Source: Nocardia transvalensis NBRC 15921
Lineage (GTDB): Bacteria; Actinomycetota; Actinomycetes; Mycobacteriales; Mycobacteriaceae
Length of the DNA: 64,000 nucleotides
Assembly: GCF_000308875.1 (NCBI RefSeq)
Contig: NZ_BAGL01000013.1
Coordinates: forward strand, 124,001 to 188,000
Direction: 5' to 3'
Under the pieces are notes generated by a model. The model was not told where the DNA came from. It saw only the letters and a list, made by a program, of their open reading frames with translations, and made no database searches. Positions 6,405-49,426 of this stretch are shown here, one piece after another. A program made the position numbers and the translations under genes. Within the stretch, counting starts at the first letter, position 1; every line of letters begins with the position of its first letter.

Positions 6405-6452
6405 CCTTTGCGTGCTTGATGAAGGCTGTTTTCTCGGCCGGTGAGGAGTCTG

Positions 6453-9400
6453 ATGCTCGGCAAGGCTGACGTTCGCGACATCGTGGCGGCGGAGCTCGGG
6501 GTGCCGTCCGAATCGATCGGCGACGACGACGATCTGGTCAGCCTGGGCATGCACTCGATGATGCTGATGCAGCTGGCCGCGCGCTGGCGCAAGCAGGGTC
6601 ACGAGGTGCGCAGCTCGGAACTGGCCCTGCAACCGACGCTCGCCGCGTGGGCGGAACTGCTGTCCGGGGGGCATGCCGAACCGCCCGCGCCCGCACCGGA
6701 ACCCGCCCCGGCCGAGACCGCCGAGAGCGACGAATTCGCCCTCGCCACAATGCAACACGCGTACTGGGTCGGGCGGCGGCAGGATCAGCGGCTGGGCGGT
6801 GTCGCGGCGCATCTGTACGTCGAATTCGACGGCGAGGGCGTACAGGCGGACCGCATGCGGCGCGCGGTGGGACGCCTGGTCCGCCGCCACGAGCAACTGC
6901 GCGTGCAGTTCACCGACGCCGGTACGCAAAAGGTGCTGCCGGAGCCGTTGCGTCCGGTCTTCCATCTCATCGACCTCACGTCGGCGGGAGCGACGGGACC
7001 GGAGGCGGCAGCCTGCGTAACCACGGAGGGACCCGCGGACGGCGCCGTGGACACTGCATTCGACGGCGGGCGAATGGAACTCGAACGCGTCCGCCAGGAG
7101 AAGAGTCACCAGCGGATGGACGTCGCGGCCGGTCAGGTCGTCGACATCACCCTCACGCTGCTGCCCGGCGGAAAGCACCGAGTGCACGTCGATGTCGACA
7201 TGCTGGCCGGTGACGCCCTGAGCTACCGCAGGATTCTCGACGATCTCGCGACCCTCTACGCCGCCGACGCCGACGCCGCCGATTCCCTCGGCTACACCTA
7301 CCGCCGCTACCTGGCCGATCGAGAGCGCACCGCACCCGACAACTCGGCCGCGAAGACGTGGTGGGAGAACCGGATCCAGGGCCTCCCCGATATCCCGTCG
7401 CTGCCGGTGCTCGCGGAGAACGACCGCCCCGACCCGGCGCGCAGCGTCCGGCTGCACCACTGGTTCCCGCCGGAGGCGAAGGCGCAGCTCAACAAGGTCG
7501 CGCACAGCCACGGCGTGACCCCGGCCGTGGCCCTGGCCACCGTCTTCTCCGAGGCGATCGCCCGCTGGTCGGCGCACCAGCGCTTCCTGCTGAATGTCCC
7601 GCTGTTCGACCGGGAGCCGCTGCACGACGACATCGACCGCGTGGTCGGCGACTTCACCAACTCCGTACTGGTGGATGTCGACGCCCGCGAAACGGAATCG
7701 ATGGTGACGCGCGCGAAGCGATTGCAGCGCGAATTGCACACCTGCGCGGCGCATTCCACCTACGAGGGCCTGGACGTCCTGCGCGACCTCGGCCGGCTGC
7801 GCGGCGCCCCGGTCACCCCGTCCGTGGTGTTCACCTCCGGGCTCGACCTGGGCGAGCTGTTCTCCGACGAGGTGACGAAGACCTTCGGCGAGCCGGTGTG
7901 GATCCTCTCGCAGGGCCCGCAGGTGGACCTGGACGCCCAGGTGGTCGAGCTGTCCGGCGGGCTGCTGGTCAACTGGGACGTGCGCCGCGACGCCATGCCC
8001 GCCGGTGTGGTCGACGCGATGTTCGGCGAATTCCGCCGGTTGCTGCTGGCGCTGGTCGAGCCGGGCGCCGATTGGCAGGCGCCGCTGTCGATCCCGCTGC
8101 CGGACGCCCAGCGGGCGGTGCGCGACTCGGTCAACGCCACGGGCCGGGACCTTGGCGCTCGCACGCTGCACGACGCGTTCTTCGCACGGGCCGAACAGGA
8201 TCCGAACCGTATCGCGCTGCGCTGGCGGGACGGCGGATCCAGCAGCTACGGCGATCTCGCGGGCCGGGCCCTGGCGGTCGGCCGGGCGCTGGCCGATGCC
8301 GGAGTGCGGCCCGGGGACACCGTCGCGGTCGTGATCGGCAAGGGGCACAGGCAAATTCCCGCAGTGCTGGGCGTGCTGGCCGCCGGCGCGACCTACGTTC
8401 CGATCGGCATCGGGCAGCCGCGGGCGCGGCGGGACCGGATTCTCGCGCGGGCGGGGGCGAAGGTGGCCCTCGTCGAGGACGGCGCGGAGCTGCCCGACGG
8501 CGTCACCGCGGTCGCGCTGGACGTGGCGGTCGCCGGACCGCGACTGGAGCGCGCCCACAGCTGCGCGCCCCGCGAGACCGCATACGTCCTGTTCACCTCC
8601 GGTTCCACCGGCGAGCCCAAGGGCGTCGAGGTCAGCCACCGGGCCGCCGCCAACACCATCGACGCGCTCGCCGCGCACTTCGGGCTCGGTAAGGACGACC
8701 GGTTGATCGGCCTGTCCTCGCTGGAATTCGACCTGTCGGTGTTCGACATCTTCGGCGCGTTGTCGCTCGGCGGCGCGCTGGCCTGCGTGGACGCCGACAC
8801 CGAGCGCGACGCCGAGGCGTGGGCGCGGCTCATCGCCGAAACCGGTGTGAGCGTGCTGAACTGCGCACCCGGCCTGATCGGCATGCTGCTCGACACCGCG
8901 TCTCCCGAACAGCTGCGCTCGATGCGCGTGGTGATCACCGGCGGCGACCGCGTGAATACCGAACTGGGACAGCGCTTCCGGGCCGTCGTCCCCGGCGTGC
9001 GCTTCGCCGGGCTGGGCGGCACCACCGAAACCGCGATCCACTCCACCGTGTGCGAGGTGACCGCCGACTTCCCGGCCGCCTGGGCCACGGTGCCCTACGG
9101 CACCCCACTGGCGAACGTCCGGATGCGGGTGGTCAACGAGCGCGGCGAGGATTGCCCGGACTGGGTGGTCGGCGAATTGTGGATCGGCGGAACGAGTGTC
9201 GCCGACGGCTACCGCGGCGATCCCGAGCGGACCGCGGAGCGCTTCGTCGAGATCGACGGCGTGCGCTGGTATCGCACCGGCGATCTCGCCCGATACCTGC
9301 CCGACGGCACGGTGGACTTCCTGGGCCGCGCCGACCATCAGGTGAAGATCCGCGGCTACCGCGTGGAACTCGGCGAGGTGGAGTCGGCGCTGACGGCGCT

Positions 9401-9959
9401 GCCGCAGGTCCGCGAGGCCGTGGCGTTGGTGACCGACGGCGGCCGGTTGGTCGCGGCCGTGACCGCCGACGCCGCCGTGGATTTCGCCGCCGCGCTGCGG
9501 GACTCGCTGCCCGCCCACATGATTCCCGAGGCCGTCGAGGTGTTCGACGCGATCCCGTTGACCGCCAACGGAAAACTGGACCGCGCGGCCGTCCGCCGCG
9601 CGATCGACGCCGACGCCCCGGGCTCGGCGGACGCCTACGTGGCGCCCGCCGACGAGGTCGAGGCGGCGATCGCCTACATCGCGGGCCAGATCCTCGGCGT
9701 CGACCAGGTGGGCGTCGAGACCGACTTCTTCGAGATCGGCGGCAACTCGATCCTGGCCACCACCCTCACCGCGAAGGTGCGCGGGCTGCTGTCGGTCGAG
9801 AAGTTCGGTGTCACCGAGGTTTTCGAGGGACGCACGGTGCGCCGGATCGCGTCCGGACTGATGGCGTCCGAGACCACGCCGGGCCGGCTGGCGCAGGTGT
9901 CGCGGATCCTGCTCGAACTCGCCGAGGTGAGCCTGCCCGAACCCGTGCCCTCCCGCTGA
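6453..9959 (+). CDS. mbtB: MbtB-like NRPS: ArCP-Cy-A-PCP (hydroxyphenyl-oxazoline formation)
   Basis: This 1168-aa protein starts at ATG 6453 behind GAGGAG. Domains in order: aryl carrier protein (Ser35 in LGMHSMM); a heterocyclization domain with the DxxxxD motif DMLAGD at residues 249-254; an adenylation domain about 560-1060 ([29 protein letters not shown]); and a PCP (Ser1099 in GGNSIL). This is the MbtB order: a salicyl group on the ArCP condenses with a Ser/Thr/Cys on the PCP and cyclizes. Hand alignment to PheA suggests specificity residues D-L-F-N-I-G-L-I-H-K, closest to Thr-type codes, which would fit a methyl-oxazoline. Unlike mycobacterial MbtB there is no C-terminal thioesterase; separate thioesterases follow downstream. 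A 67-bp repeat (family B) lies inside the Cy domain. Confidence 0.9.
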   Translation: MLGKADVRDIVAAELGVPSESIGDDDDLVSLGMHSMMLMQLAARWRKQGHEVRSSELALQPTLAAWAELLSGGHAEPPAPAPEPAPAETAESDEFALATMQHAYWVGRRQDQRLGGVAAHLYVEFDGEGVQADRMRRAVGRLVRRHEQLRVQFTDAGTQKVLPEPLRPVFHLIDLTSAGATGPEAAACVTTEGPADGAVDTAFDGGRMELERVRQEKSHQRMDVAAGQVVDITLTLLPGGKHRVHVDVDMLAGDALSYRRILDDLATLYAADADAADSLGYTYRRYLADRERTAPDNSAAKTWWENRIQGLPDIPSLPVLAENDRPDPARSVRLHHWFPPEAKAQLNKVAHSHGVTPAVALATVFSEAIARWSAHQRFLLNVPLFDREPLHDDIDRVVGDFTNSVLVDVDARETESMVTRAKRLQRELHTCAAHSTYEGLDVLRDLGRLRGAPVTPSVVFTSGLDLGELFSDEVTKTFGEPVWILSQGPQVDLDAQVVELSGGLLVNWDVRRDAMPAGVVDAMFGEFRRLLLALVEPGADWQAPLSIPLPDAQRAVRDSVNATGRDLGARTLHDAFFARAEQDPNRIALRWRDGGSSSYGDLAGRALAVGRALADAGVRPGDTVAVVIGKGHRQIPAVLGVLAAGATYVPIGIGQPRARRDRILARAGAKVALVEDGAELPDGVTAVALDVAVAGPRLERAHSCAPRETAYVLFTSGSTGEPKGVEVSHRAAANTIDALAAHFGLGKDDRLIGLSSLEFDLSVFDIFGALSLGGALACVDADTERDAEAWARLIAETGVSVLNCAPGLIGMLLDTASPEQLRSMRVVITGGDRVNTELGQRFRAVVPGVRFAGLGGTTETAIHSTVCEVTADFPAAWATVPYGTPLANVRMRVVNERGEDCPDWVVGELWIGGTSVADGYRGDPERTAERFVEIDGVRWYRTGDLARYLPDGTVDFLGRADHQVKIRGYRVELGEVESALTALPQVREAVALVTDGGRLVAAVTADAAVDFAAALRDSLPAHMIPEAVEVFDAIPLTANGKLDRAAVRRAIDADAPGSADAYVAPADEVEAAIAYIAGQILGVDQVGVETDFFEIGGNSILATTLTAKVRGLLSVEKFGVTEVFEGRTVRRIASGLMASETTPGRLAQVSRILLELAEVSLPEPVPSR
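6988..7054 (+). repeat. Family B repeat, copy 1, inside the Cy domain of the first NRPS
   Basis: The first 46 bp match 12835-12880 at 42 positions, and the full 67 bp match 12835-12901 at about 55 positions without a gap. Here it is read as SAGATGPEAAACVTTEGP..., a surface-loop stretch between the early Cy strands and the SHQ region. The second copy is read in another frame, which argues for DNA-level insertion rather than shared protein function. Confidence 0.75.
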
Positions 9960-10003
9960 CCGCGGAGCGGCCGGATTTCGTAGTACACAGATTGGTTCGA
10001 TAG

Positions 10004-13000
10004 ATGCGTTCGCTGGAAGACCTGCAGGTAGCGATGGCGGCTCGGCTCGCCCAGGAGGGGCTGGCCACGACCGCCGCCGTGCCGGTGCGCCGAGATCCGC
10101 AGCGGGCCCCGCTGTCGTTCGGGCAGCGGTACGTCTGGGCGCATCAGCAGATCGCCCCCGACAGCGCGGCCTACAACCTGTGCCTGGCACTGACTTTCGA
10201 CGGTGACATCGACGCGGCCGCGCTGCGGGCGGCGTTCACCGCGCTGGTCCGGCGGCACGAGGTCCTGCGCACGACCTACCACACGGACGAGAACGGCGAG
10301 CCCTACCAGCGGATCCATCAGGACCTCCCGCCGCGGCTCACCGACGTGGACCTCACCGGCGAGGCAGACGCCGACGCGCGGCTGGCCGACCTGGTCGCCG
10401 CGGCGGCCCGCGAGACCTACGACCTCACGGCGGAATCGTCGCTGCGCGTCGTCTTCGCGCGGGTGCGGCCCACGCGGCTGGTCGCGGTGGTCTCGATCCA
10501 GCACATCGCCTGGGACGGGATGACGCTGCCCGCGCTGTCGCGGGATGTGGAGAACTTCTATCGCCAGGCCCTGACCGGTCCGGTCGAGGTCGAGCCGCTG
10601 GCGTTGCAGGTGGCCGATTTCGCCGAATGGGAGCAGGACCGCTTCCACGCCGAGGAGCAGACCGAGGACATCCGGTTCTGGGAGAGCCGGTTCGACGGCG
10701 AGGTCCCCGAACTCCAGCTGCCCTTCGATCGCCGCCCGGTCGCGGTGTCCGAGCGCGGCGAGCGCGCCGACAAGCCGCTGAGCGCGCGGGCCGACGCCAA
10801 TCTGCGCCGGCTCACCGCCGACCTGCGCACCACGCCCTTCTCGGTCTTCCTCGCCGCCTATCACCTGGCGCTGCGGCAGATGACCGGCCAGGACGACATG
10901 GTCATCGGCACCACGGTCGCCAACCGTGAGGAAGCCGGGATGGAACTGCTCATCGGCAACCTCAGCAATATGCTGCCGCTGCACCTCACCGGCGGCGCGG
11001 GCACGTTCGCCGAACTGGTGGAGCAGGTGCGGTCGGTGACCACGGAGGCGTTCCGGCACAAGCACTTCCCGCAGGAGGGCATCGTCCGGGCGGTGAACCG
11101 GACGACCGGGAACGTCGGCTCCACACTGTTCGACACCATGGTGCTGTTCCTGCACCAGAAGATCGACGGCCCGCAGCTGCCGGGCGTCACCACCAGCTGG
11201 GAACTCATCGACAACGGCGGGGCCCTGCTGCCGCTGGTCGTCGAGACCTTCATGCACGACGACCGCACCGACGTCCAGATCACCTACCGCACCGACGTTT
11301 TCGACGCCGCGACGATCGACCGGCTGCACGAGTACATCGACCAGGTCCTGGCCGAGGCCGCCGGCGACCGCCGGGTGGACGATCTGCTGACCCTGTCGGA
11401 GACCGACCGGGCGCATCTGGCGGAGTGGTCGCACGGCGGCGTGGTGGAGGTCGAGCGGGAGACCGTCGATGCCATGATCCGGCATTCGGCCGCCCGGTAT
11501 CCCGAGCGGGTCGCGGTCGTATTCGGCGAGACGGAGCTGACCTACGCCGACTTCGACGCGCGCGTCAACCGGCTCGCGCGCCTGCTGCTCGCCCGTGGCG
11601 TGCGTGCCGGGGACCGGGTCGCCGTCTACGCCGAGCGCAGCGAACGGCTGCCCCTCGCGTTCGCCGCCGTGCTGCGGGCGGGCGCGGTGTACTTCCCGAT
11701 CGATCCCGCCTACCCGTCCGATCGCGTCGAGTACATGCTCGGCGATGCCCGGCCCACCGTGCTGATCCGCACCGCGCCGCGCCCGCCCGAGGTCGACCTC
11801 GACATCCCGGTGGTGGATCTGGCCGCGGAGGAGATCGCGCGAGAGCTTGCGGCACTGGATGATTCGGCCGTCGCGGAGAGCGAGCTGACCCGGCCCATCC
11901 ATCCGTTCGACGGCGCGTACCTGCTGTACACCTCCGGAACCACCGGGCGTCCCAAGGGTGTCGTGGTGCATCACCGGGGCGTCGCCAACCACGTGCAGTG
12001 GATGCGCGACTACCTCGAATTCGGCGCGGAGCGCATTCTGCAGAAGGCGCCCATCGGCTTCGACGTCTCGGTGTTCGAACTGGTCAACGCGCTGTGCACG
12101 GGGTCGGCGACGGTGCTGCCGCCGCCGGACTGGTGGCAGGCCGATGTCGAGGCGCTGGCGGGGATCATCCACCGCCACCGAATCACGCAGATCTCGTTGG
12201 TGCCCAGCGTCGTTCGGGCCTTTATCGACGCCGGGCCGGATCCGTCGCGCTTGCAGTCGATGCGCTATGTCTACCTCGGCGGCGAATCGGTGCCGCCGGC
12301 CCTGGTGGAGGAGTCGAGCCGGTTCTTCGGCGGGACGGTCCTGGGCCTGTACGGGCCGACCGAGGGCTCGATGGACCTCATGCACGAGGACTTCGCCGGA
12401 ACCTCGGAGCGGAGCTTGCGGAGCGATCCTGATACAGAGCGTGATTCGATCGAATCCGCGCTGATCGGGCGGCCGGAATGGAATTCGTCGGTATACGTCC
12501 TGGACGAACGGCTGCGGCAGGTGCCGCCCGGCGTCGTCGGCGAGCTGTATCTCGGTGGCGCGCAACTGGCGCAGGGCTATCACCGGCGGCCCGACCTGAC
12601 CGGCGCGGCCTTCGTGGCCTGCCCGTTCGACGCGACGCCGGGCGCGCGCATGTACCGCACCGGCGACATCGTGCGCTGGAACTCCCGTGGGCGCATGGAG
12701 TATCTGGGCCGCGTCGACGATCAGGTGAAGATCCGCGGCCACCGCATCGAACTCGGCGAGATCGGCACCGTCCTGCGCCGCTTGCCCGGTATCGCGTCCG
12801 CCGCGGCCGTCACCGTCTCGCAGGGCAGCGGTGCGAGCGACGGGCCCGGAGGCGGCAGCTTGCGTAACCACGTAGGGCCCGGGGAGGACCGCCATGGACA
12901 CAGTGCGGCGCTGGTGGCTTACTATGTGCCGGAACCGGATTCGGAGTTCGCCACCCTCGCCGATCCCGCCGACCGCATCAAGGCGGAGCTGGCGGAGCGG

Positions 13001-16000
13001 CTGCCCGACTACATGATTCCCGCCGCGCTGGTGCGGTTGGCCGCGTTGCCGCTCACCGCGAACGGCAAACTGGACCGCAATGCCCTGCCCGCACCGGATC
13101 TCGGCGGCAGCACCGGCCGTGGCCGCGCGCTGGCCGACGACGCCGAATACGCCGTCGCCGAGGCCGTGCGCCAGGTACTCGGCATCGCCGACGGCACCGA
13201 TCTCGCGGCCGACGACGACTTCCTGGCCCTGGGCGGCGATTCCATCACCGCCATCCGGATGGCGTCCGCGCTGAAGAAACGCGGCCTGCTCATCACGACC
13301 AGCGCGCTGTTCGAGGCGCGCACGATCGCCCGGATCGCCGCGGCGGCGGAACCGATCGTGGCGGGCGGCGCGCCGGCGCTGGCCGAGGTCGGCGAGGAGA
13401 CGGGCTGGATTCCGCTCAATCCGATCGCGACCGTGCTCACCGAGCAGGCCGCCGACTACAGCGCCTACAGCCAGGCCACCGCGGTGGTGACGCCCGCGCA
13501 CAGCACCCTCGAACAGGTCGCCGCGGTGGTGGCGGCGCTGGTGGACCGGCATCCGATGCTGCGCGCACGGGTGGCCGAGGGACCGGACGGGCAGACCGCC
13601 TTCCACGTCCCGGGCTCGGACGAGACCACGGCCGAGCCCACGCTGACCGAGGTGGTGCTGGATCCCGGAACATGGGATCGCACCGCCGGTTCGGCGCTCC
13701 GCGAGCAGTTACGGCAGGTCAGCGAGCTGCTGGACCCGGGGGCCGGGCGCATGGTCGCGGCCGTGTGGCTGCGGTCCGCCGACGGCGCGCAGGGCCGCCT
13801 GTTGCTGGTGATCCACCACCTCGCGGTCGACGGCGTGTCCTGGCGCATCCTGCACGACGACCTGCGCCAGCTCTGGCAACACCCCGACGCGCCCGCGGAA
13901 TCCGGGACGTCGGTGAAGACGTGGAATACCAGCCTGGTCGGGCTGGCGACCGCGGACAGCGTGGTCGGCACCCTGCCGTACTGGACGGCCGCCGCGGAGG
14001 GGGTCGATCCGGTGCTCGGCAACCGCGAACTCGACCCCGCCGTGGACACCGTCGCGACCGTCCGCGAGATCACGGCGACGCTCGACTCCGACGACACCGC
14101 ATTCCTGATGACCACGGCCACCGCGGCGTTCGGCTGCGACTTCCTCGACATCCAAGTGGCGTCGCTCGCGGTGGCGGTGCACCGGTTCCGGCGTCGGCGT
14201 GACAGCGACGCCCGCACGGTATCGCTCACCATGGAACGGCACGGCCGCGTCGAAACACTGTTCAGAGGAGTGGATCTCGCGAATACCGTCGGCTGGTTCA
14301 CCACCGCCTACCCGGTGACTCTGGACGTCTCCGGCGGATCCGAGGTCGAGTCCGCGGTCAAGGCCGTCAAGGAGCAGTTGCTCGCCGTCCCGGATTCCGG
14401 AATCGGCTGGGGGCTGCTGCGCCTGCTCAACCCGGAGACCCGGCCGGGGCTCGAACGGCACCGCTCGCCGCAGATCAGCTTCAACTACATGGGCCGGTTC
14501 GCCGACGGTGGCTCCGAGGGCCCGGCCGAGGACTGGTCGGCCGCACCGGAATTCGGCTACCTGGGCGGCCACGCCAATCCCGGCATGCCCGCGCCCGCCC
14601 TGCTCGACATCAACACGGTGGCGCTGACCGGCGACGACCGCGTGACCCTGCACGCCTCCTTCCGCTTCCCGGGCGACGCGCTGTCCGAGGAGGACGCGCG
14701 CGAACTCGCCGAACTGTGGGAATCCGGTCTGGGCGAGCTGGCGAAGGCGGTGCGCGACAATCAGATTCGACGGCTGACCCCGAGCGATGTGCTCGCGGCC
14801 GACGTGACGCAGCTCGATCTCGACCGCTGGCAGGACATGTACGGCGAGTACGAGGACGTGTACCCGCTGGCGCCCATGCAGGCCGGGCTCTATCTGACCG
14901 CGCTCAGCGCGGGCGCCCGCGACGTCTACAACGTGCAGACGCTGATCGGCGTGCGTGGCGAGCTGGACGTGCCGCGGCTGGGCCGGGCGTTCGACACCGT
15001 GCTGAACCGCTACCCGAACCTGCGTGTGACACTGTCGGTCTCGCACGCCGGTCAGCCGTACGCGATCGTGGCCGGGCACGCCGCGGTGCCGGTCCGGGAG
15101 ATCGACCTCTCGGCACAGGCGGACGCGACCGAGCGGCTGCACGAGTTCTACCGGTCCGATCAGGCCGAGCAGTTCGACCTGACCCACGGGCCGCTCACCC
15201 GGGTCGCCGTGGCGCACCTGCCCGACGGGACGCACATGGTGGTGCTGACGATGCACCACCTGCTGCTCGACGGCTGGTCCGGGCAGCTGGTGTCGCGAGA
15301 GGTGTTCGCGGAGTACGCCGTCGCCGGTGCGGAGCCGATCGGCACGCCGGAGACCTTCGGGAAATTCCTGGCGATGGTGCACGACGAGCAGGACGCCGTG
15401 GAACGGGCGTGGCGGCCGGTACTCGACGGTGTGCAGCCGTGCATCGTCGCCCCGGGCCGCGGCCTGGGCAGCGACGGCATCCCGGTCGAGCGGTCCTTCG
15501 CGATCGACGACGACCTGGTGGAGCGGGTGACCGCGCTGGCCTCCGAACTCGGCACCACCTTCAGCGTGGCCTGCCAGCTGGCGTGGGCGAACGCGCTGCG
15601 CTACGTGGCGGGCGGCGAGGATGTCGTCTTCGGCGAGGCGGTGTCTGGACGGCCGGCCGATCTCGACGACGTCGACAACGCCATCGGCTGTTTCGCCAAC
15701 ATCATCCCCGCCGTCATCGGATTCGACGGCGGCCGGACCTGGCGCCAGCATCTGGCCGACATCCAGTCCCGGCGCGTGGATCTCATGGAGTACCACAGCT
15801 ATCCGCTCACCTCGGCACTGCGCGCGGCCGGGGCCCGCAAGCTGTTCGACACCATGTTCGTGTTCGAGTCCTATCCGCCCGGGCGCAAGGAACTCGAGCG
15901 GCTGCTCGGCACGGCGGGGCTGGAGCTGGCGTCTTTCGAGGGCGCCGGGGCGACGGACAACGCGCTGCTGCTGATGATCTTCCCCGCGAATTCGCTGCTG

Positions 16001-16195
16001 CCCAGCGATTCCGTGCAGGCGGCGATCTTCTACGCCGAGGACGCCTTCGAACCGGACGATGCCCGGATCATCGAGGCCGCCTTCTACAACACCCTGCGGG
16101 CCATCGCCGACGGGCCCGACCGTCCCGTCGACGCCGTGCCCGTGCTCGGCGACGAGGACCAGGGCCTGCTGGTGATGCGGCGCATGTGGCAATGA
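10004..16195 (+). CDS. NRPS, C-A-PCP-E-C (first lysine-type module plus trailing condensation domain)
   Basis: This 2063-aa protein has five domains. The condensation domain is about 25-450 (QHIAWDG). The adenylation domain is about 470-990 (LYTSGTTGRPKG, GLYGPTEG). PCP carries Ser1080 in LGGDSIT. The epimerization domain is about 1130-1560 (IHHLAVDGVSWRIL, ERHGR). The second condensation domain is about 1620-2050 (MHHLLLDGWSG). The first four resemble the MbtE-type module that adds the first (hydroxy)lysine. The hand-read specificity string is D-V-F-S-Y-G-L-M-D-K; the acidic Asp fits a basic side chain, but the substrate is inferred. The trailing C domain has no A domain after it and may form the ester to a polyketide hydroxyacyl unit. 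A family B repeat lies in the A domain. It starts 44 bases after the first NRPS. Confidence 0.88.
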   Translation: MRSLEDLQVAMAARLAQEGLATTAAVPVRRDPQRAPLSFGQRYVWAHQQIAPDSAAYNLCLALTFDGDIDAAALRAAFTALVRRHEVLRTTYHTDENGEPYQRIHQDLPPRLTDVDLTGEADADARLADLVAAAARETYDLTAESSLRVVFARVRPTRLVAVVSIQHIAWDGMTLPALSRDVENFYRQALTGPVEVEPLALQVADFAEWEQDRFHAEEQTEDIRFWESRFDGEVPELQLPFDRRPVAVSERGERADKPLSARADANLRRLTADLRTTPFSVFLAAYHLALRQMTGQDDMVIGTTVANREEAGMELLIGNLSNMLPLHLTGGAGTFAELVEQVRSVTTEAFRHKHFPQEGIVRAVNRTTGNVGSTLFDTMVLFLHQKIDGPQLPGVTTSWELIDNGGALLPLVVETFMHDDRTDVQITYRTDVFDAATIDRLHEYIDQVLAEAAGDRRVDDLLTLSETDRAHLAEWSHGGVVEVERETVDAMIRHSAARYPERVAVVFGETELTYADFDARVNRLARLLLARGVRAGDRVAVYAERSERLPLAFAAVLRAGAVYFPIDPAYPSDRVEYMLGDARPTVLIRTAPRPPEVDLDIPVVDLAAEEIARELAALDDSAVAESELTRPIHPFDGAYLLYTSGTTGRPKGVVVHHRGVANHVQWMRDYLEFGAERILQKAPIGFDVSVFELVNALCTGSATVLPPPDWWQADVEALAGIIHRHRITQISLVPSVVRAFIDAGPDPSRLQSMRYVYLGGESVPPALVEESSRFFGGTVLGLYGPTEGSMDLMHEDFAGTSERSLRSDPDTERDSIESALIGRPEWNSSVYVLDERLRQVPPGVVGELYLGGAQLAQGYHRRPDLTGAAFVACPFDATPGARMYRTGDIVRWNSRGRMEYLGRVDDQVKIRGHRIELGEIGTVLRRLPGIASAAAVTVSQGSGASDGPGGGSLRNHVGPGEDRHGHSAALVAYYVPEPDSEFATLADPADRIKAELAERLPDYMIPAALVRLAALPLTANGKLDRNALPAPDLGGSTGRGRALADDAEYAVAEAVRQVLGIADGTDLAADDDFLALGGDSITAIRMASALKKRGLLITTSALFEARTIARIAAAAEPIVAGGAPALAEVGEETGWIPLNPIATVLTEQAADYSAYSQATAVVTPAHSTLEQVAAVVAALVDRHPMLRARVAEGPDGQTAFHVPGSDETTAEPTLTEVVLDPGTWDRTAGSALREQLRQVSELLDPGAGRMVAAVWLRSADGAQGRLLLVIHHLAVDGVSWRILHDDLRQLWQHPDAPAESGTSVKTWNTSLVGLATADSVVGTLPYWTAAAEGVDPVLGNRELDPAVDTVATVREITATLDSDDTAFLMTTATAAFGCDFLDIQVASLAVAVHRFRRRRDSDARTVSLTMERHGRVETLFRGVDLANTVGWFTTAYPVTLDVSGGSEVESAVKAVKEQLLAVPDSGIGWGLLRLLNPETRPGLERHRSPQISFNYMGRFADGGSEGPAEDWSAAPEFGYLGGHANPGMPAPALLDINTVALTGDDRVTLHASFRFPGDALSEEDARELAELWESGLGELAKAVRDNQIRRLTPSDVLAADVTQLDLDRWQDMYGEYEDVYPLAPMQAGLYLTALSAGARDVYNVQTLIGVRGELDVPRLGRAFDTVLNRYPNLRVTLSVSHAGQPYAIVAGHAAVPVREIDLSAQADATERLHEFYRSDQAEQFDLTHGPLTRVAVAHLPDGTHMVVLTMHHLLLDGWSGQLVSREVFAEYAVAGAEPIGTPETFGKFLAMVHDEQDAVERAWRPVLDGVQPCIVAPGRGLGSDGIPVERSFAIDDDLVERVTALASELGTTFSVACQLAWANALRYVAGGEDVVFGEAVSGRPADLDDVDNAIGCFANIIPAVIGFDGGRTWRQHLADIQSRRVDLMEYHSYPLTSALRAAGARKLFDTMFVFESYPPGRKELERLLGTAGLELASFEGAGATDNALLLMIFPANSLLPSDSVQAAIFYAEDAFEPDDARIIEAAFYNTLRAIADGPDRPVDAVPVLGDEDQGLLVMRRMWQ
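12835..12901 (+). repeat. Family B repeat, copy 2, inside the A domain of the second NRPS
   Basis: This copy aligns without gaps to 6988-7054 but is read in a different frame, giving SDGPGGGSLRNHVGPGED. It falls in the loop after the A8 core motif, where related enzymes have only a few residues before the LVAYYVP strand. Confidence 0.75.
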
Positions 16196-20868: not shown

Positions 20869-21624
20869 ATGCACAGACCGGGCTGGATCCGGAAGTTCCA
20901 TAAATCGCGTGCGGCCGGCGGGCCGCCGTTATTGATCTTCCCCCACGCCGGTGCCGGCGCGTCGACCTATCGCGCGTTCTCCAAGGCGTTCAGCAGAGAC
21001 TTCGACGTCATCGTCTTTCAATATCCGGGCCGGCAGGACCGCGCGCACGAGCCGCTGCCGACCTCGCTGCCCGAACTCGCCGCCGGCGCGCTCGCCGAAT
21101 TCCGGAACTCCGCGTTCGACCGCGGCACCGGGATCTACGCGTTCGGCCACAGCATGGGGGCGCTCGTCTCGTTCGAATTCGTCCGGCTCGCCGAGGCCGC
21201 GGGTATCTCCGTGCGGCAGTTGACGGTCTCGGCGGCGGTCCCGCCCGCCCGCGCGGAGTTCCGGCCGCCGACACCCACCGGCGACGAGGAACTACTGGAC
21301 CACCTGACCATGCTCGAGGGCATGGGCTCCGATGTGCTCGACAGCCGGGAGATCATGCGCATGGCGCTGCCGGTCCTCCAGGCCGATCACCGTGCCTCCG
21401 ACGCGTATTCGCCGTCTCCGGAGGTGGAACTGTCCGCGCGGATCCACGCGCTCGGCGGTGAACACGACCCCATCGTCTCCATCGCGGACCTGCACGGCTG
21501 GCGTCGCCACAGCGACGACGTCGAGGTCACGGTGTTCGAAGGCGGGCACTTCTTCCTGAACGACCATGTCGACACGATCGCGGCCGTCACGGCGCGGCGC
21601 GCGACCGTCGGGCCGGCGGCCTGA
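20869..21624 (+). CDS. Type II thioesterase (PKS cassette 1)
   Basis: This 251-aa alpha/beta hydrolase of the GrsT/TEII family has an oxyanion region FPHAGAGAS (about 23-31), nucleophile GHSMG (about 89-93) and a late GGHFFLNDH His. The start is placed at ATG 20869, about nine bases after GAAGGGG; ATG 20860 is the alternative. Stand-alone thioesterases remove misprimed acyl groups from carrier proteins or release products. It is paralogous to the gene at 27455, which has the same length and the same FHK-RAAG N-terminal motif. It lies 60 bases after the third NRPS, in the same likely operon. Confidence 0.87.
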   Translation: MHRPGWIRKFHKSRAAGGPPLLIFPHAGAGASTYRAFSKAFSRDFDVIVFQYPGRQDRAHEPLPTSLPELAAGALAEFRNSAFDRGTGIYAFGHSMGALVSFEFVRLAEAAGISVRQLTVSAAVPPARAEFRPPTPTGDEELLDHLTMLEGMGSDVLDSREIMRMALPVLQADHRASDAYSPSPEVELSARIHALGGEHDPIVSIADLHGWRRHSDDVEVTVFEGGHFFLNDHVDTIAAVTARRATVGPAA

Positions 21625-21638
21625 CGGGGAGGACTCTT

Positions 21639-22961
21639 ATGACTTTGTCTACCAAGGACGACGTCGATCACGTCGTCATCGCCGGGATGGCCGTCGAGGC
21701 GCCCGGCGGCATCGAGGGACCGGGCTCGTACTGGTCGGCGCTCGCCGATGCGAAGGAGTTGATCGGGCCGTTCCCGCGCGATCGCGGGTGGCCGATCGAG
21801 GACATGCTGTCGCTGGCCCGGCTGGACGGCTGGGGCACGGTCCGCGACGCCGGGGGCTTCCTGGACCGGGCCGCCTCGTTCGATCCGGCCTTCTTCGGCA
21901 TCAGTCAGCGCGAGGCGCTCGCGACCGACCCGCAGCAGCGGGTGGCGCTGCGGGTGGCGTGGAAGGCGCTCGAGAACTCCGGCATCAATCCGGCCGCGCT
22001 CGACGGAGAGGACGCCGGCTGCTTCGTCGGCGTCCTGCCGATGGAATACGGCCCGCGCGGCGCCGAGGTCAACGAGTACAGCGGGCACCGGGTGGTCAGC
22101 CAGGTGACGATGAGCGTGGCCGGGCGAGTGTCGCACTGCCTCGGACTGATCGGGCCGTCGGTGACCGTCGATACCGCCTGCACCTCGTCGCTGACCGCGC
22201 TGCACCTGGCCGCGGCCGCGGTGCGCGGCGGGGAATGCGACTGGGCCCTCGCCGGGGGCGTCTGCGTGATGGGATCGCCGATCCTGTTCTACGAATTCTC
22301 CAAGCACAACGCGCTCTCGGCGGACGGGCACTGCCGGTCCTACGCCGACGACGCCAGCGGCACGCTGTGGGGCGAGGGCGCGGGATTCGTTCTCTTGGAG
22401 AAGGAGTCGCGCGCGCGGCGGCTGGGCCACCGCGTCTACGGCCGGCTGCTGGCCTCCGCGCACAATCACAACGGGAAGGGCAAACCGATCCTCACGCCCC
22501 GAATCGACGCGCAGGAGAGGGTGATTCGCAAGACCCTCGATCTGGCGGGCATCGACCCGGCCGACGTGGGCATGGTCGAGGGCCACGGCACCGCCACCCG
22601 GGCCGGTGATCCGGTGGAACTCACGGCTTTGCAGAACACCTACGGCGCAACGGATTCCGACACTCTGCTCGGCTCGGTGAAATCGAATATCGGTCACACT
22701 CAGGCGGCCGCGGGCGTCATGGGCCTGATCAAACTGCTACTGGCCGGCCGGTACGGCAGCATCCCGCCGAGCCTGTTCTCGGACAATCCGACGACCAGGG
22801 TCGACTGGGACCGGGCCAGCCTGCGGCTGGCCACGACGCTGCAACCGTGGGAACCGCGCGACGGCGTCCGCTGCGGCGCGGTCTCCGCGTTCGGCGCGGG
22901 CGGCGCCAACGCGCACGCGATCGTCGCGATGCCCGTCGCGGAGGAGGCCGAGTATGTCTAG
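21639..22961 (+). CDS. MbtC-like beta-ketoacyl synthase (PKS cassette 1)
   Basis: This 440-aa stand-alone type I ketosynthase has catalytic Cys in DTACTSSL, and His in EGHGTATRAGD and KSNIGHTQAAAG, all intact. It lacks AT, KR and ACP domains; these are in the next protein, as in mycobacterial MbtC/MbtD. It should condense an acyl starter with a malonyl-type unit to make the beta-hydroxy acid of the siderophore. Its last bases overlap the next start codon by 8 bp (ATGTCTAG), exactly as in cassette 2. Confidence 0.88.
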   Translation: MTLSTKDDVDHVVIAGMAVEAPGGIEGPGSYWSALADAKELIGPFPRDRGWPIEDMLSLARLDGWGTVRDAGGFLDRAASFDPAFFGISQREALATDPQQRVALRVAWKALENSGINPAALDGEDAGCFVGVLPMEYGPRGAEVNEYSGHRVVSQVTMSVAGRVSHCLGLIGPSVTVDTACTSSLTALHLAAAAVRGGECDWALAGGVCVMGSPILFYEFSKHNALSADGHCRSYADDASGTLWGEGAGFVLLEKESRARRLGHRVYGRLLASAHNHNGKGKPILTPRIDAQERVIRKTLDLAGIDPADVGMVEGHGTATRAGDPVELTALQNTYGATDSDTLLGSVKSNIGHTQAAAGVMGLIKLLLAGRYGSIPPSLFSDNPTTRVDWDRASLRLATTLQPWEPRDGVRCGAVSAFGAGGANAHAIVAMPVAEEAEYV

Positions 22962-25900
22962 CTACCGGCTTCCCGACGGTTCGGTGCCGATCCTGCTGTC
23001 GGCGGACAATCTCGGACTGCTGCCCGGCGAGGCCGCGGCCGTGCTGTCGTATGCCGAAGCGCGGCCGGGGATTTCGCCCGATCGCATCGCCGACATGCTG
23101 TTCCGGACGCGGGCCGCCCGGCGGCACCGGGCGCTGGCCATGGTCGGCTCCCGGGACGAGCTGATCGCGGCGCTGCGGGCGATCGCGGACGAGCGGGCGC
23201 ACCCGGCGGTGGTCCGCTCGGCGGAGCCCGCCGGAACGCGCCGGTCGGCCTATGTCTTTCCGGGACAGGGCGGGCAGCGCCCGGGGATGGGCAGGCTGTT
23301 CTACGAGCACATGCCCGCCTTCCGGGCCGAGGTCGATCGCTGCGCCGCCCTCTTCGAGGAGCTGTTCGGCGTCTCGCCGAAGGCATACCTGCTGGACGAG
23401 GACCTCGCGGCCGGCGACAGCGCGACCGTGGTGCAGCCCGCGCTGTTCACCCAGATGGTGGGGCTGGCCGCCATGTGGCGGTCCGTCGGCATCGGTCCCG
23501 ATGTGGTCGTCGGCCACAGCCAGGGCGAACTGGCCGCGGCGTACGTATCCGGCACGATGACGCTGGCCGACGCGGTACTGGTGGTGGGCGCCCGCGCGCG
23601 GGCGGTCGACACCATCGCCTCGGACCGGTACGCGATGGCCGTCGTCGCCGCCGACCGCGAGGAATGCGAGGAACTGCTGGCTCGGCGCTCCGGCTGGGCG
23701 CAGGTCTCGGTCATCAATTCACCACGCATGGTGGGCATCTCGGGCGAGCGCGGCACGGTCGAGGACGTCGTGGAAACCCTCACGGCCCGGGACAGATTCG
23801 CTCGCCTGATCCGCGTGGAGTATCCCGCGCACACCGACCGGGTCACCGAGGTCCGCCAGCAGGTGCAGGAGGCGGTGGACGGGCGGCTGGAACACCGGCA
23901 CTTCCTCGACACCGAGATCGATTGCCTCGGAGCCACTCTCGGCGAGGCGGTAACCGCGGACCTGCCGGTGGACGAGTACTGGTTCTGGAATCTGCGCAAC
24001 ACCGTCCGCTTCGACAAGGCCATCGAGGCGGCCGTCGAGCGGGAGGTCGACACCTTCGTCGAACTGTCCGAACATCCGACGCTGGCGCTGTCCATCCAGG
24101 AGAACGTCGCCACGTCCGGCCGCCGGACCACGGTGACCGGCACCTCGAACCGGGCCGCCGCCGATCTGGCGGAGTTCACACGCAATCTCGCGGCCCTGGC
24201 CGTGCACGATCTGGACTACTCGTGGGAGCGGTTGCGTGTGGAATCCGAGGAGGTCGTCCGGTTGCCGCTGGACGATTTCCCGAATACCGAGATGAACGAG
24301 TCGCAGCTGTGGCTGCCGTACAACTCCGTCACGGAACGTGCTGCGCCCGTGGAACGGGTCGCGCCGCTCCCTGTCGCGCCGCCGCCCGTCGCCGCCACGG
24401 TGCGGACCGCGCCTCCGCAGCAGTTGATCGAGACCTGGAACCGACTGGCGTACCGGTCGCTGACGCCGCCGCGCTCGATCGGGGTCATCGATCACACCGG
24501 CCGGTGCGCGGATCTCGCTGCGGCGCTGTGCGCGCGGGCCGCGGAACAGGGGGCGACCGCGCGGCTGGTCGACGCGCCCGGCGGCGATACCGGTGATGCC
24601 GACACCCTCGTGGTCCTGTTGCCGGCGCGGCCCGAGCCGTCCGCCGCCGCGGCCGTCGCCGAGATCGCGGAGTTCTTCGGGACCCGGGGCTGGTGGGCCA
24701 AACCCGGTGCGGCCGTGCGTGACTGGTGGCTGGTGACGGTCGCCGGTGAGGTCGCGGTGCGCGGTGACGCGCTGCCGCATTCGGTGCACGCGGCCGCCGC
24801 GGCGGGATTCCGTTGCGCGGGAACCGAATATCCCGGCATCACGTTCCGCCATCTGGATCTGGCGGCGGACGGCGCCGGCGCGGACGGCGCGGCCTCGATC
24901 GTCACCGCGCTGCATACCGCCGACGAGCCGGAGCTGGCGCTGCGCGGCGGGTCGCTGTACGCGAAGCGGCTGGTCGAGGCGGATCTCGACGGCATCGACC
25001 CCGTGGCCGTCCCGGAGGATGTCGTCATTCTGGGCGGCACCGGCGCGGTCGGGCTCGAGTTCTGCGAGCACGTCGCGCGGCACGGTGCGCGGCGGGTCGC
25101 GCTGGTGAGCCGGTCGGGGGAGACCGCGGAGATCGCCGAGCGCCTGCGGGGGATCCGTGCGCTCGGGGCCGAGATCCGCGTGATCTCCTGCGATGTCGGT
25201 GATGCGGGCGCCGTCCGGCGGATGGCCGACGAGCTGCGCGATATGCCCGCGGGTCTGGTCGTCCACGCGGCCGCCGATATCGCGGGGCTGACGAATATCG
25301 AACTCGCGAATGTCACTCCGGAACAGGCCGACGAGGCCGTGCGCGGCAAGGTCGTCGGCATCGCGAATGTGCTGGATTCGCTTGCGACGACCGATGATTG
25401 CCGCTTGCTGCTGTGCTCCTCGCTGGCGGCAACGCTGGGCGGGCGTGGGATGAGCGTCTACGCCGCGGCCAACCGCATGCTCGACGCGCTGGCCCACCGG
25501 CTGCGCGCCGAGGGCCGGAACGTCGTCTCGGTGCAGTGGGGGCAGTGGGCGGTCCACCGGGGTGCGGGTACCTCGGCGGGCGATGTGCTGGCGAGCGTGG
25601 GATATCTGCCGATGCGGTCCGAGGACGCCATCGCCCTGGGCCTGAGCGGGCTCGCCCAGAACTCGCTGGTCACCGCGTTCGATTGGGACCGTGGGCGTTC
25701 CGTGCTGGGACAGTACGGCTACGGGCCGGTGCTCTCGCAGCTGGAGACTCCCGAGGCCGTTGTGCCCGAGCCCGTGGTGAACACGGTGGCTCCCGCCGCG
25801 GACGCTCCCCAGCGCCTGCTCCAACTGCTGGCCGAGGTCATCGGCGCGGACGACCTGGGGACCATCGATACCGCGCGTCCTCTGGTGGCAGTCGGATTGG

Positions 25901-27168
25901 ACTCCCTCCAGGCCCTGGAGTTGCGCAGGCGGATCGACGAGGAATTCCGTCGCGAGGTGCCGGTAGCCGACCTCATCGGGGGTGCTTCACTGGATGACGT
26001 CGTCCGCATGGTCGGTGGTAGCTCGGCTGTCGGGGCGGCAGGGGGCCCCGGCCAAAAGCATGCCGGGGAATCGAGTGGGCAGGCCGACATGACCGGCGTG
26101 CAGGCCGACAAGATCCGTTCTGCCCGGGGGGATTTGGATCTCTTCGGGTTGCGGGCCATGTTGCGGGTTTTGCGGCCGGTGCTGGATGAGCGGGAGTTTC
26201 GACGGGACGAAGAGGTCGCGGACGCATTGGAATTCGCGCCTCGGCATCGGTGGCTGTTGCGGCAGTGGCTGCTGGCGTTGACGGAGAACGGGTGTCTGGA
26301 GGGTGATTCGGGGCGCGGGCACCGGTATGTCCGTGCGGTGCCGGAACCGTCGCGGACCGATCTGTCCGAGGTGTGCGCGGATCTCGGGTACGCGAGCGAA
26401 TTCGCCACCTTCCTGGCCGGTTCCGCCGACCGCCTGCTTGAGCTGGCGCAGGATCGGCTGCGGGTACAGGAACTGTTGTTCCCGAACGGCGATATGGATA
26501 CGGCCGATACGTTCTACCGGGACAACCTGGGCAGCCGGTACCTGAATATCGCCGCGCGGGAGGCGGTCGCGGAGATCGCCGCACGGCTACGCACCGAACG
26601 GCCGACCACCCGGATCCTCGAACTCGGCGCGGGTGTAGGCGGATTGACCAGCGAAATCGTGGCCGGAATGGCCGGGGAGTCGGTCGATTACCACTTCACC
26701 GACCTGTCCACATTCTTCCTCAACGCGGCCCGCAAGCGCTTCACCGGCGTACCGGGAATGCGATTCGGCATCGTGGATATGAACGCGGATCTGCCGAAGC
26801 AGCCCCGCTGCGACATCGTGCTCGCGTCGAATGTGCTGCACAACGCGCAGCACATCGGGCGGACCCTGCGCGAACTGCGCGACCTGTTGGAACCCGGCGG
26901 CGCGCTCGTCTTCCTCGAGTTCTGCCGGGCGCACTGCCTGATGCTGACCTCCGTGCATTTCCTGATGTCGCCGCGCGCGGATCAGGCGCGCGCGGGGGAG
27001 ACCGATGTGCGGGCGGGAACGGATCGCATCTTCCTGACCGAACGCGAATGGCTGGATCAGCTCACGGAAGCGGGCCTCACGCCCCTGCCCGTGCGACCCG
27101 AGGCCGGGCATCCGCTGGCGGTACTCGACCAGAAAGTGTTTGTCGCCGTGCGCGATCCGGACGCGTGA
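22954..27168 (+). CDS. MbtD-like PKS with added methyltransferase: AT-KR-ACP-MT
   Basis: This is a 1404-aa protein. The acyltransferase is about 80-420 (GHSQGE nucleophile about residue 190). The ketoreductase is about 690-900 (GGTGAVG nucleotide motif; Ser in CSSLAATLGG, Tyr in VYAAANRM). ACP carries Ser984 in GLDSLQ. After a linker with a family A repeat comes a methyltransferase about 1090-1404: a winged-helix-like lead-in, then the SAM motif LELGAGVGG and the ASNVLHNA strand. There is no DH or ER, so the product should stay a beta-hydroxyacyl. The MT may add an alpha-methyl to the acyl chain; 2-methyl or 2,2-dimethyl-3-hydroxy acids are known in nocobactin/amamistatin-type siderophores. 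The second cassette lacks this domain. Confidence 0.85.
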   Translation: MSSYRLPDGSVPILLSADNLGLLPGEAAAVLSYAEARPGISPDRIADMLFRTRAARRHRALAMVGSRDELIAALRAIADERAHPAVVRSAEPAGTRRSAYVFPGQGGQRPGMGRLFYEHMPAFRAEVDRCAALFEELFGVSPKAYLLDEDLAAGDSATVVQPALFTQMVGLAAMWRSVGIGPDVVVGHSQGELAAAYVSGTMTLADAVLVVGARARAVDTIASDRYAMAVVAADREECEELLARRSGWAQVSVINSPRMVGISGERGTVEDVVETLTARDRFARLIRVEYPAHTDRVTEVRQQVQEAVDGRLEHRHFLDTEIDCLGATLGEAVTADLPVDEYWFWNLRNTVRFDKAIEAAVEREVDTFVELSEHPTLALSIQENVATSGRRTTVTGTSNRAAADLAEFTRNLAALAVHDLDYSWERLRVESEEVVRLPLDDFPNTEMNESQLWLPYNSVTERAAPVERVAPLPVAPPPVAATVRTAPPQQLIETWNRLAYRSLTPPRSIGVIDHTGRCADLAAALCARAAEQGATARLVDAPGGDTGDADTLVVLLPARPEPSAAAAVAEIAEFFGTRGWWAKPGAAVRDWWLVTVAGEVAVRGDALPHSVHAAAAAGFRCAGTEYPGITFRHLDLAADGAGADGAASIVTALHTADEPELALRGGSLYAKRLVEADLDGIDPVAVPEDVVILGGTGAVGLEFCEHVARHGARRVALVSRSGETAEIAERLRGIRALGAEIRVISCDVGDAGAVRRMADELRDMPAGLVVHAAADIAGLTNIELANVTPEQADEAVRGKVVGIANVLDSLATTDDCRLLLCSSLAATLGGRGMSVYAAANRMLDALAHRLRAEGRNVVSVQWGQWAVHRGAGTSAGDVLASVGYLPMRSEDAIALGLSGLAQNSLVTAFDWDRGRSVLGQYGYGPVLSQLETPEAVVPEPVVNTVAPAADAPQRLLQLLAEVIGADDLGTIDTARPLVAVGLDSLQALELRRRIDEEFRREVPVADLIGGASLDDVVRMVGGSSAVGAAGGPGQKHAGESSGQADMTGVQADKIRSARGDLDLFGLRAMLRVLRPVLDEREFRRDEEVADALEFAPRHRWLLRQWLLALTENGCLEGDSGRGHRYVRAVPEPSRTDLSEVCADLGYASEFATFLAGSADRLLELAQDRLRVQELLFPNGDMDTADTFYRDNLGSRYLNIAAREAVAEIAARLRTERPTTRILELGAGVGGLTSEIVAGMAGESVDYHFTDLSTFFLNAARKRFTGVPGMRFGIVDMNADLPKQPRCDIVLASNVLHNAQHIGRTLRELRDLLEPGGALVFLEFCRAHCLMLTSVHFLMSPRADQARAGETDVRAGTDRIFLTEREWLDQLTEAGLTPLPVRPEAGHPLAVLDQKVFVAVRDPDA
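26046..26069 (-). repeat. Family A dyad element in the ACP-MT linker of PKS 1
   Basis: This copy is in reverse orientation. Its arms read CCCCGGC and GCCGGGG rather than TTCCGGC and GCCGGAA. Both sides changed together, so the pairing is kept. It is translated within the interdomain linker as GPGQKHAGES. Confidence 0.75.
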
Positions 27169-27282
27169 CCCACCGCGCGCCCGAGGTTTGCCGAGCAGCC
27201 TTCCGCAGTGATAGCCGAGCTGCGGAAGTGTCTGTTCGGTCATGGGAAGGGCCCCTGTTTCCTAGGGCATCGCTCCGGTATA

Positions 27283-27301
27283 TTAGGTTTGCCTCACCTA
27301 C
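27283..27301. promoter_or_regulatory. IdeR/DtxR-type iron box for PKS cassette 2
   Basis: TTAGGTTTGCCTCACCTAC matches 16 of 19 positions of the IdeR consensus. It lies in the 286-bp gap between the two PKS cassettes, which implies a separate iron-repressed transcript for the second cassette. Confidence 0.72.
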
Positions 27302-27349
27302 ATACGGCCGGGGTGGATCCAGGTCCGGCCAGGCCATATGTAGGTGAGG
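27292..27349. promoter_or_regulatory. Large inverted repeat overlapping the iron box
   Basis: Perfect 13-bp arms CCTCACCTACATA (27292-27304) and TATGTAGGTGAGG (27337-27349), plus an inner CGG/CCG-rich pair, form a stem that begins inside the iron box. It could be an extended operator, an attenuator, or a terminator of cassette 1. Confidence 0.55.
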
Positions 27350-27454
27350 TGATAGCAGTCGGGCGGATCGGGATGCGCTCGGCCGCCCGCTGCCGGACCT
27401 GTGCCCGGAATTCGCTGCGGCCCATTCCAGCCTGTGGGAAGAGAGATGTGTGAT

Positions 27455-28210
27455 ATGGCAACGACACCCGGTTGGGTCAGACAGTTTCACAAGCCGCGTG
27501 CGGCCGGGTCGGCGCCGCTGGTGATCTGTCCGCATGCCGGCGGCGGCGCGTCGACGTACCGGCCGTTCTCGAAGCGGCTGTCCGAGGATTTCGATGTCGT
27601 CGTGCTGCAGTATCCGGGACGGCAGGACCGCGCCCGCGAGGCGGCGCTCGAGACCCTGCCGGAGATCGCCGCCGGGGCCTTCGCCGAATTCTCCCGCTCG
27701 TCGTTCAACCGGGGCGAGCCGATCACCGTATTCGGCCACAGCATGGGCTCGATCGTGGCGTTCGAATTCACCCGGCTCGCCGAGGACGCCGGAATTCCGG
27801 TGCGGCTGCTGGGGATTTCCGGCACGGTGGCGCCCTCGCGCGTGGTGGATATGCCGAATCACCCGACCGACGACGATCAGCTGCTCGACCATCTCACCGG
27901 CCTCCAGGGCACCGGCACCGATGTGCTGGGCAATCGGGACCTGATGAAGATGGCGCTGCCGGTGCTGAAGGCCGACTACGCCGCCTTCGACCGTTACGCC
28001 TGCCCGGTGGATGTGCGGGTGCAGGCGCCGATCCGCGCGATGGGCGGCAGCGACGACGATTTCGTCACCATGGGCGAGCTGTACGGCTGGCAGCGCCACA
28101 CGGCGGCCGACCTGCAGGTCGAGATGTTCGACGGCGGGCACTTCTATCTGCACGACCAGGTCGCGGGGGTGTCGGAACTGCTCGCGGCCGAACTGGAGAT
28201 CGCTCGATGA
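27455..28210 (+). CDS. Type II thioesterase (PKS cassette 2)
   Basis: This 251-aa alpha/beta hydrolase has CPHAGGGAS, nucleophile GHSMGS and late GGHFYLHDQ His. It begins at ATG 27455 behind GGAAGAGAG. It has the same length as the 20869 thioesterase and clearly shares ancestry with it (GWVRQFHKPRAAG against GWIRKFHKSRAAG). Its role should be carrier-protein editing or acyl release. Its stop overlaps the next start in ATGA, so translation is coupled. Expression is probably set by the iron box at 27283. Confidence 0.87.
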   Translation: MATTPGWVRQFHKPRAAGSAPLVICPHAGGGASTYRPFSKRLSEDFDVVVLQYPGRQDRAREAALETLPEIAAGAFAEFSRSSFNRGEPITVFGHSMGSIVAFEFTRLAEDAGIPVRLLGISGTVAPSRVVDMPNHPTDDDQLLDHLTGLQGTGTDVLGNRDLMKMALPVLKADYAAFDRYACPVDVRVQAPIRAMGGSDDDFVTMGELYGWQRHTAADLQVEMFDGGHFYLHDQVAGVSELLAAELEIAR

Positions 28211-49151: not shown

Positions 49152-49247
49152 TCGGTCTCCTCTGTCACGTGCAGGTGCTCGGACGGCATAGCTCGCGCCG
49201 ACGCTAGTGCAGGCGACTGAGGATCACCTGAATCCACGCCATGTTGT

Positions 49248-49409: not shown

Positions 49410-49425
49410 ATGCTCTTGGCCGGGA
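49403..49425 (+). repeat. Family A dyad element abutting the rplN promoter
   Basis: Arms TCCCGGC (49403-49409) and GCCGGGA (49419-49425) flank ATGCTCTTG. Both arms carry a paired change relative to TTCCGGC/GCCGGAA copies. It ends one base before the predicted -35 of the rplN promoter. Confidence 0.8.
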
Positions 49426-49426
49426 T

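Follow-up and report, generated by a model that had tools for sequence, protein, structure and literature searches.

A family of conserved-loop hairpin repeats inserted in genes and at operon junctions of Nocardia, with copies in two non-ribosomal peptide synthetase genes of Nocardia transvalensis

Several families of short bacterial repeats have been described within genes or at their borders. Rickettsia palindromic elements (RPEs), as outlined in PMC10969869, are palindromic repeats that have entered many unrelated genes in frame, with a short peptide being added to the product. Mycobacterial interspersed repetitive units (MIRUs), as portrayed in PMC12548453, are short, apparently mobile and located at start codons, with an internal open reading frame (ORF) coupled at -4 nt to the gene that follows. 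Repetitive extragenic palindromes (REPs) are dispersed stem-loops, 20-40 bp long and marked by a GTAG or CGTC tag, some of which lie in ORFs in several species and code for 20-30 amino acids (PMC3733652); the words Nocardia, Actinobacteria and Mycobacterium are absent from the main text of that account. Here we describe a repeat of Nocardia transvalensis NBRC 15921, two copies of which lie in two non-ribosomal peptide synthetase (NRPS) genes in a stretch of 64,000 nucleotides (contig NZ_BAGL01000013.1, positions 124,001 to 188,000, forward strand; hereafter the window). We consider it likely that both are copies of a family of 72-75-nt hairpin repeats, inserted in genes and at operon junctions, which persists through its transparency to translation and whose hairpin is held by selection on a single strand.

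The two copies were noticed in an initial annotation of the window as a gapless match of 67 bp that the two NRPS genes read in different frames. A recount confirmed that 6988-7054 and 12835-12901 are identical at 55 of 67 bases (42 of 46 over the first part), and the translations agree that the frames are unlike, being ..ATGPEAAACVTTEGP.. in NRPS1 and ..SDGPGGGSLRNHVGP.. in NRPS2. The 25-mer common to the copies has two matches in the window when up to three mismatches are permitted, and 0 in 100 shuffles. Copy 1 sits in the Condensation domain of its ORF, with the insert at about residues 181-205, while copy 2 splits the AMP-binding_C domain, of which only profile positions 27-76 of 76 align (residues 968-1022). 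The features are listed below, with the extents of the copies taken from matches to a covariance model (R1) derived from 11 copies of the repeat and the stem arms taken from columns of an alignment (A3) of eight copies.

6441..9959, plus strand: NRPS ORF 1, host of copy 1; Pfam Condensation (97-544), AMP-binding, AMP-binding_C and PP-binding (carrier, condensation and adenylation domains)
6980..7064, plus strand: copy 1, extent of the R1 match (about 72 nt is the gain relative to orthologues); E 3.2e-8 in a 0.97 Mb search and 2.8e-7 in the own genome; empty in 27/27 orthologue rows
6982..6986, plus strand: copy 1, outer stem 5' arm (A3 columns 4-8)
6994..7000, plus strand: copy 1, inner stem 5' arm (A3 columns 16-22)
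7001..7027, plus strand: copy 1, conserved loop of near-invariant columns (exact 25-mer at 7001-7025)
7028..7035, plus strand: copy 1, inner stem 3' arm, one base unpaired (A3 columns 50-57)
7040..7044, plus strand: copy 1, outer stem 3' arm, 4/5 pairs (A3 columns 62-66)
10004..16195, plus strand: NRPS ORF 2, host of copy 2; Pfam Condensation (three stretches), AMP-binding, AMP-binding_C and PP-binding
12827..12911, plus strand: copy 2, extent of the R1 match (about 72 nt is the gain relative to orthologues); E 1.5e-10, and 1.3e-9 in the own genome; empty in 32/32 orthologue rows
12829..12833, plus strand: copy 2, outer stem 5' arm, 4/5 pairs (A3 columns 4-8)
12841..12847, plus strand: copy 2, inner stem 5' arm (A3 columns 16-22)
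12848..12874, plus strand: copy 2, conserved loop (exact 25-mer at 12848-12872)
12875..12882, plus strand: copy 2, inner stem 3' arm, one base unpaired in the model (A3 columns 50-57)
12887..12891, plus strand: copy 2, outer stem 3' arm (A3 columns 62-66)

Copies of the repeat have been gained at NRPS1, NRPS2 and a third gene. The comparison with orthologous NRPS genes that the initial annotation had proposed found neither insert in any of them. Orthologues of NRPS2 were taken from 34 loci (30 Nocardia, 1 Antrihabitans, 2 Gordonia and 1 metagenome-assembled genome titled Mycobacteriaceae), and in a DNA alignment all 27 rows compared at site 1, and all 32 compared at site 2, lack the insert. 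Each NRPS site has a gain of 72 nt (24 codons) relative to N. mexicana and N. wallacei, and when every row is counted, the gap amounts to 69-75 nt for site 1 and 63-72 nt for site 2, being a multiple of three throughout. The repeat unit therefore slightly exceeds 67 bp, with 72 nt at the NRPS sites and 74-75 nt elsewhere. The third gene belongs to the PALP family and has a 75-nt insert which is lacking in 15 relatives and present as the same insertion in one other (L152); 10 of the 26 genomes gave no match. The junction of gatC and gatA, at which another copy lies, also has empty relatives, and a third NRPS of N. transvalensis has a copy between its Condensation and AMP-binding matches. In N. 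vermiculata, NRPS2 has its own copy and part of a second unit elsewhere in the gene, at a position where 26 other rows have none, which indicates that NRPS2 was hit independently. What looked like a 9-bp target duplication at this copy was only apparent, as it corresponds to the partial second tandem unit.

Searching the host genome with the repeat, the other check that the initial annotation had put forward, revealed many further copies. A DNA query returned 43 rows at E<=10, of which 23 were under 1e-3 (query copy included), and R1 gave 29 matches at E<=1, all but one of them (28) below 0.003. Across the genus, 147 of 148 genomes have an R1 match at E<=0.001, and the sole miss (G133) has three weak matches, the best with an E value of 0.0038. 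At the same threshold the number of copies per genome ranges from 1 to 33 among the matches listed, with 1 in G124, 2 in G035, 3 in G044 and at least 30 in some others. In a sample of 298 genomes drawn from the whole order there were matches in 11: seven belong to the host genus, and the other four, from other genera, have a single match apiece. The match in one of these four is strong (G413, E 8.9e-13); this lone copy (L250) has a matched stem and is a candidate for horizontal transfer. No match was obtained in Rfam at the gathering score for the 9 of 30 loci that were scanned. A survey of the literature on repeats in Nocardia, to which most subscription journals were external, found no account of the repeat, which leaves its absence from print unproved.

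The repeat forms a hairpin, palindromic as are RPEs, whose stem keeps its pairing around a near-invariant loop. The loop of 27-28 nt, GGAGGCGGCAGC(N)GCGTAACCACG(N)A, sits on a 5-6-bp inner stem. Next come, in type A copies, a TCA bulge and a 12-bp outer stem; type B copies, which include both NRPS copies, have an internal loop there and an outer stem that is about 5 bp long. In an alignment of 93 copies to R1 (A4), 98.1% of the cells are paired, compared with 84.1% after shuffling, 16 of the 17 pairs have changed on both sides (that is, are compensated), and the covariation score is 0.383 relative to 0.129 (sd 0.007) in shuffles, with none of 500 shuffles matching any of five measures; A4 was fitted to the structure and is thus biased towards it, and kinship among the copies inflates such counts. 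When the structure was slid along A4, the paired cells dropped to 33.9-51.9%. The eight type B copies of A3, both NRPS copies among them, are paired in 91.7% of cells versus 82.0% in shuffles (0/500). Compensated pairs were also identified between orthologous copies of one and the same insertion (L072/L152, L162/L198, L074/L132, L119/L165 and L127/L167).

The copies occur in two translational forms, which are largely separated by a one-base difference in the length of the core. Contexts were labelled for 23 of the 28 copies of the host genome from translations and Pfam, a frame guess based on GC3 being too weak for some. Fifteen of the 23 are inside genes or fused in frame to the end of a gene, and all of these have a 25-nt core (27-nt loop). 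Their hosts are NRPS1, NRPS2, NRPS3, the PALP enzyme, a response regulator, phosphomannomutase, an ABC ATPase, CNNM (antisense), IMPDH, HemC, a GSDH-like protein, a TetR-like gene (labelled with no Pfam scan) and NirB, with 12 host genes in the sense orientation and 1 antisense. In the host genome the frame used by genic copies is open, and the three measured sites have gained 72 or 75 nt. One sense frame of the 25-nt core has a TAA, so two of the three sense frames are passable. The C-terminus of NirB (L081-L083; G000:C63:69357-69594) bears the repeat three times in tandem, at 25 residues per copy, and the stem sequence there differs from that of the other copies of the genome.

Seven copies lie at gene junctions, including gatC|gatA, pyrB|pyrC and murT|gatD (names read off translations), and six of them have a 26-nt core; the remaining labelled copy, at the 3' end of a gene, has a core of 25 nt. 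Across many genomes a 26-nt core is present in 102 of 119 junction-like copies. Among 113 distinct junction-like units, those within arrays included, the length is 74 nt in 46, 75 nt in 50 and 73 nt in 4, with no next start found for 13; the next start was defined as the GC+(A/G/T)TG closest to position 74, a rule that is biased to 74 and neutral between 73 and 75. The mini-ORF of a 74-nt unit begins on the upstream stop/start overlap and stops on a TGA that overlaps the next ATG. This stop was recorded in 46 units, while 49 mini-ORFs are open, 4 have an early stop and 1 is in another register. A GGA shortly before the next start would act as a Shine-Dalgarno sequence; G, G and A are found at -9, -8 and -7 in 60, 72 and 61 of 80 distinct tails. 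Tandem arrays vary in copy number, as at one locus with 4, 1, 3 and 2 units in L126, L097, L113 and L114, respectively. At a gene junction homologous to that of L079, a different repeat (GATGACCGACAATTGCGCAGCGGGTT...) occurs as a tandem pair in L229 (G010). The gatC|gatA overlap is occupied by longer, unrelated spacers of 85-111 nt in L206 (G006), L223 (G015) and L224 (G016), and this junction may be a hot spot shared by different repeat families.

When compared with the described systems, the family behaves both like RPEs and like MIRUs within a single covarying hairpin, and by analogy it can be regarded as a cross between the two. The resemblance to RPEs that the initial annotation had proposed stands for behaviour, since the repeat is palindromic and is inserted in frame in unrelated genes (with empty orthologues for NRPS1, NRPS2 and the PALP gene, and open frames in further hosts), as RPEs are in PMC10969869. 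It does not extend to membership, as the unit of 72-75 nt is well short of the RPE size of about 150 bp. By description, the Nocardia repeat is set apart further by its large conserved loop, its start/stop-overlap form and its occurrence in a different phylum. Like MIRUs as far as these have been outlined, it is inserted at start codons with an ORF at -4, as read from the sequence of 46 of the 113 junction-like units, and it forms 74-75-bp tandem arrays of variable copy number. The genic copies do not fit MIRUs, and unlike MIRUs, which are not known to have dyad symmetry, the Nocardia repeat is a covarying hairpin with a second, in-gene form. Across the order, R1 found just four genomes of other genera, each with a single match, although the MIRU sequence was not itself compared. 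REPs resemble the family in being dispersed stem-loops, some of them in ORFs. The listed copies have no GTAG or CGTC end tag when read by eye, their size is outside 20-40 bp, and the Y1 transposase partner of REPs (PF01797) has 0 matches in the host genome. As regards the terminal inverted repeats and target-site duplication of a classical miniature inverted-repeat transposable element, the PALP insert has no clear duplication and the gatC|gatA insert has only ATGA repeated at both ends. The repeat goes beyond the initial annotation in being a conserved-loop hairpin that also occupies operon start/stop overlaps as MIRUs do, with NRPS genes only part of its many targets.

We propose that a non-autonomous repeat of this kind would survive by leaving translation undisturbed. 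A genic copy would add an open peptide of about 24-25 residues, and a junction copy would place its mini-ORF within the stop/start relay, where coupling of the kind described for MIRUs (PMC12548453) may carry ribosomes from the upstream gene to the mini-ORF and on to the next gene. Owing to such coupling, a new junction copy would hardly alter expression. Selection would act on the folded strand, either the mRNA or the same strand of the DNA, the mobilizing factor presumably works in trans, and arrays may arise by later tandem duplication. It is this transparency to translation that likely lets the family persist. One family would then use two translational disguises, a fused peptide and a coupled mini-ORF, and palindromic repeats are seen to enter giant and housekeeping genes in frame in high-GC actinobacteria as well. 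The inserts alter the sequences of NRPSs and other enzymes, which is relevant to annotation and to the definition of NRPS domain boundaries.

Several observations weigh against this proposal. There was no match to Y1_Tnp or RVT_1 in the host genome (0 each), these being the mobilizing-enzyme families searched, and no target-site duplication was clear by eye at the PALP insert, the cleanest site. The evidence that it is the sense strand that folds, as RNA or single-stranded DNA, is modest. The non-canonical cells of 68 distinct arm pairs (pair 7 omitted) comprise 24 G.T+T.G, 5 A.C+C.A and 21 other mismatches, an excess of G.T that is itself modest relative to the shuffled-arm baseline of 56:38 and slightly favored by the counting of G.T as paired when copies were admitted. 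Single-stranded DNA would fit this signature too, which does not single out mRNA. When eight copies were folded singly, that of NRPS2 (z 0.83) did not improve on its shuffles, that of NRPS1 (z -2.22) did so moderately and with a different fold, and the other six had z values of -1.53 to -3.73. Based on this weak folding, both NRPS hairpins may be decaying. In addition, the downstream units of arrays have an unpaired A.C at pair 11 in 26 of 49 cases.

Of the other explanations, chance or an old common ancestry of the two NRPS segments retains virtually no credence. Both hosts encode NRPSs, whose domains do recur, but the copies lie in different domains and frames, the 25-mer did not recur in shuffles, orthologues lack both inserts and further copies are in unrelated genes; on these grounds we consider it refuted. 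A regulatory RNA of benefit to the host, such as an intercistronic hairpin that binds a protein, could have been duplicated across the genome, and the near-invariant loop, the strongly covarying stem and the fact that, at some sites, different genomes retain one shared insertion are all consistent with this. Nevertheless, the target genes are unrelated, many copies are within proteins, the copy number per genome runs from 1 to 33 among the matches listed and the nine loci searched had no Rfam match, and we therefore regard such a role as improbable. Transposition as single-stranded DNA by a Y1/RAYT-like transposase that recognizes the hairpin, as for a REP-like element, would account for a bulged hairpin with a conserved loop; strand-specific pairing suits a DNA strand as well, and REPs do occur within ORFs in the material described in PMC3733652. 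However, Y1_Tnp was matched in only 3 of 21 genomes, as against the presence of the repeat in nearly every genome of the genus, and the end tag is missing from the listed copies, which makes this mechanism quite improbable.

A further alternative is that insertion is matched to the target, with the 3' arm being copied from, or selected by pairing with, host sequence, the element thereby folding together with its target site. We view this as doubtful, although it has features in its favor. Of the junction copies that stand alone or come first, 76 are distinct, and in these the 3' arm pairs with host bases -1 to -4 (before NTGA) in 72, 72, 69 and 65 copies, compared with shuffled means of 54.5, 70.2, 47.0 and 45.8 and best shuffles of 63, 72, 56 and 54, and there is a sharp edge beyond these bases, as -5 pairs in just 14 of the 76. 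Several relatives whose gatC|gatA site is empty have ..GGGCGAATGA.. there, and the filled site retains GGCGAATGA as the 5' arm with TCATTCGC in the 3' arm; the letters of the 5' arm are thus already present in those empty relatives. The copy of N. transvalensis at this junction is found in two further genomes (L145 and L177), whereas G022 has the other subtype there, with CATTCGC, and both subtypes have the complement. At a second junction the copies of G078 and G021 differ, and each fits the letters of its own host when read by eye. On the other side, 4 of the 76 copies are unmatched at -1, the count at -2 is equalled by the best shuffle, the N. elegans copy pairs over GCAT alone (again by eye), and the 75-nt PALP insert brought in both of its arms. 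Moreover, units internal to arrays retain a mismatch, and orthologous copies compensate after insertion, which means that a match can arise without copying. The idea that the 3' arm must always be copied from the target was dropped because of the PALP arms, the unmatched copies and this later compensation. The matched stem reflects either use of the target sequence at insertion or later repair by selection. A mobile hairpin that recognizes the NTGA operon overlap and whose 3' arm is written, or is required, to complement precisely four bases of the host, giving a target-encoded stem around an invariant loop, can be put forward only tentatively; we know of no described counterpart of such an insertion. 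The host-matched stem itself offers a directly testable handle on how orphan repeats pick and enter their targets.

The window has other repeats in addition to the two hairpin copies. Two adjacent paralogous segments at 20877-32499 resemble duplicated synthase modules, their repeats being 70-78% identical and separated by about 6.5 kb. At 41231-41575 there is a 15-bp tandem array with 17 register copies spaced 15 bp, and at 49233-49439 a 23-bp tandem repeat of the CCCCCGCTTCCCCGGCATGCCCA type has 7 register copies.

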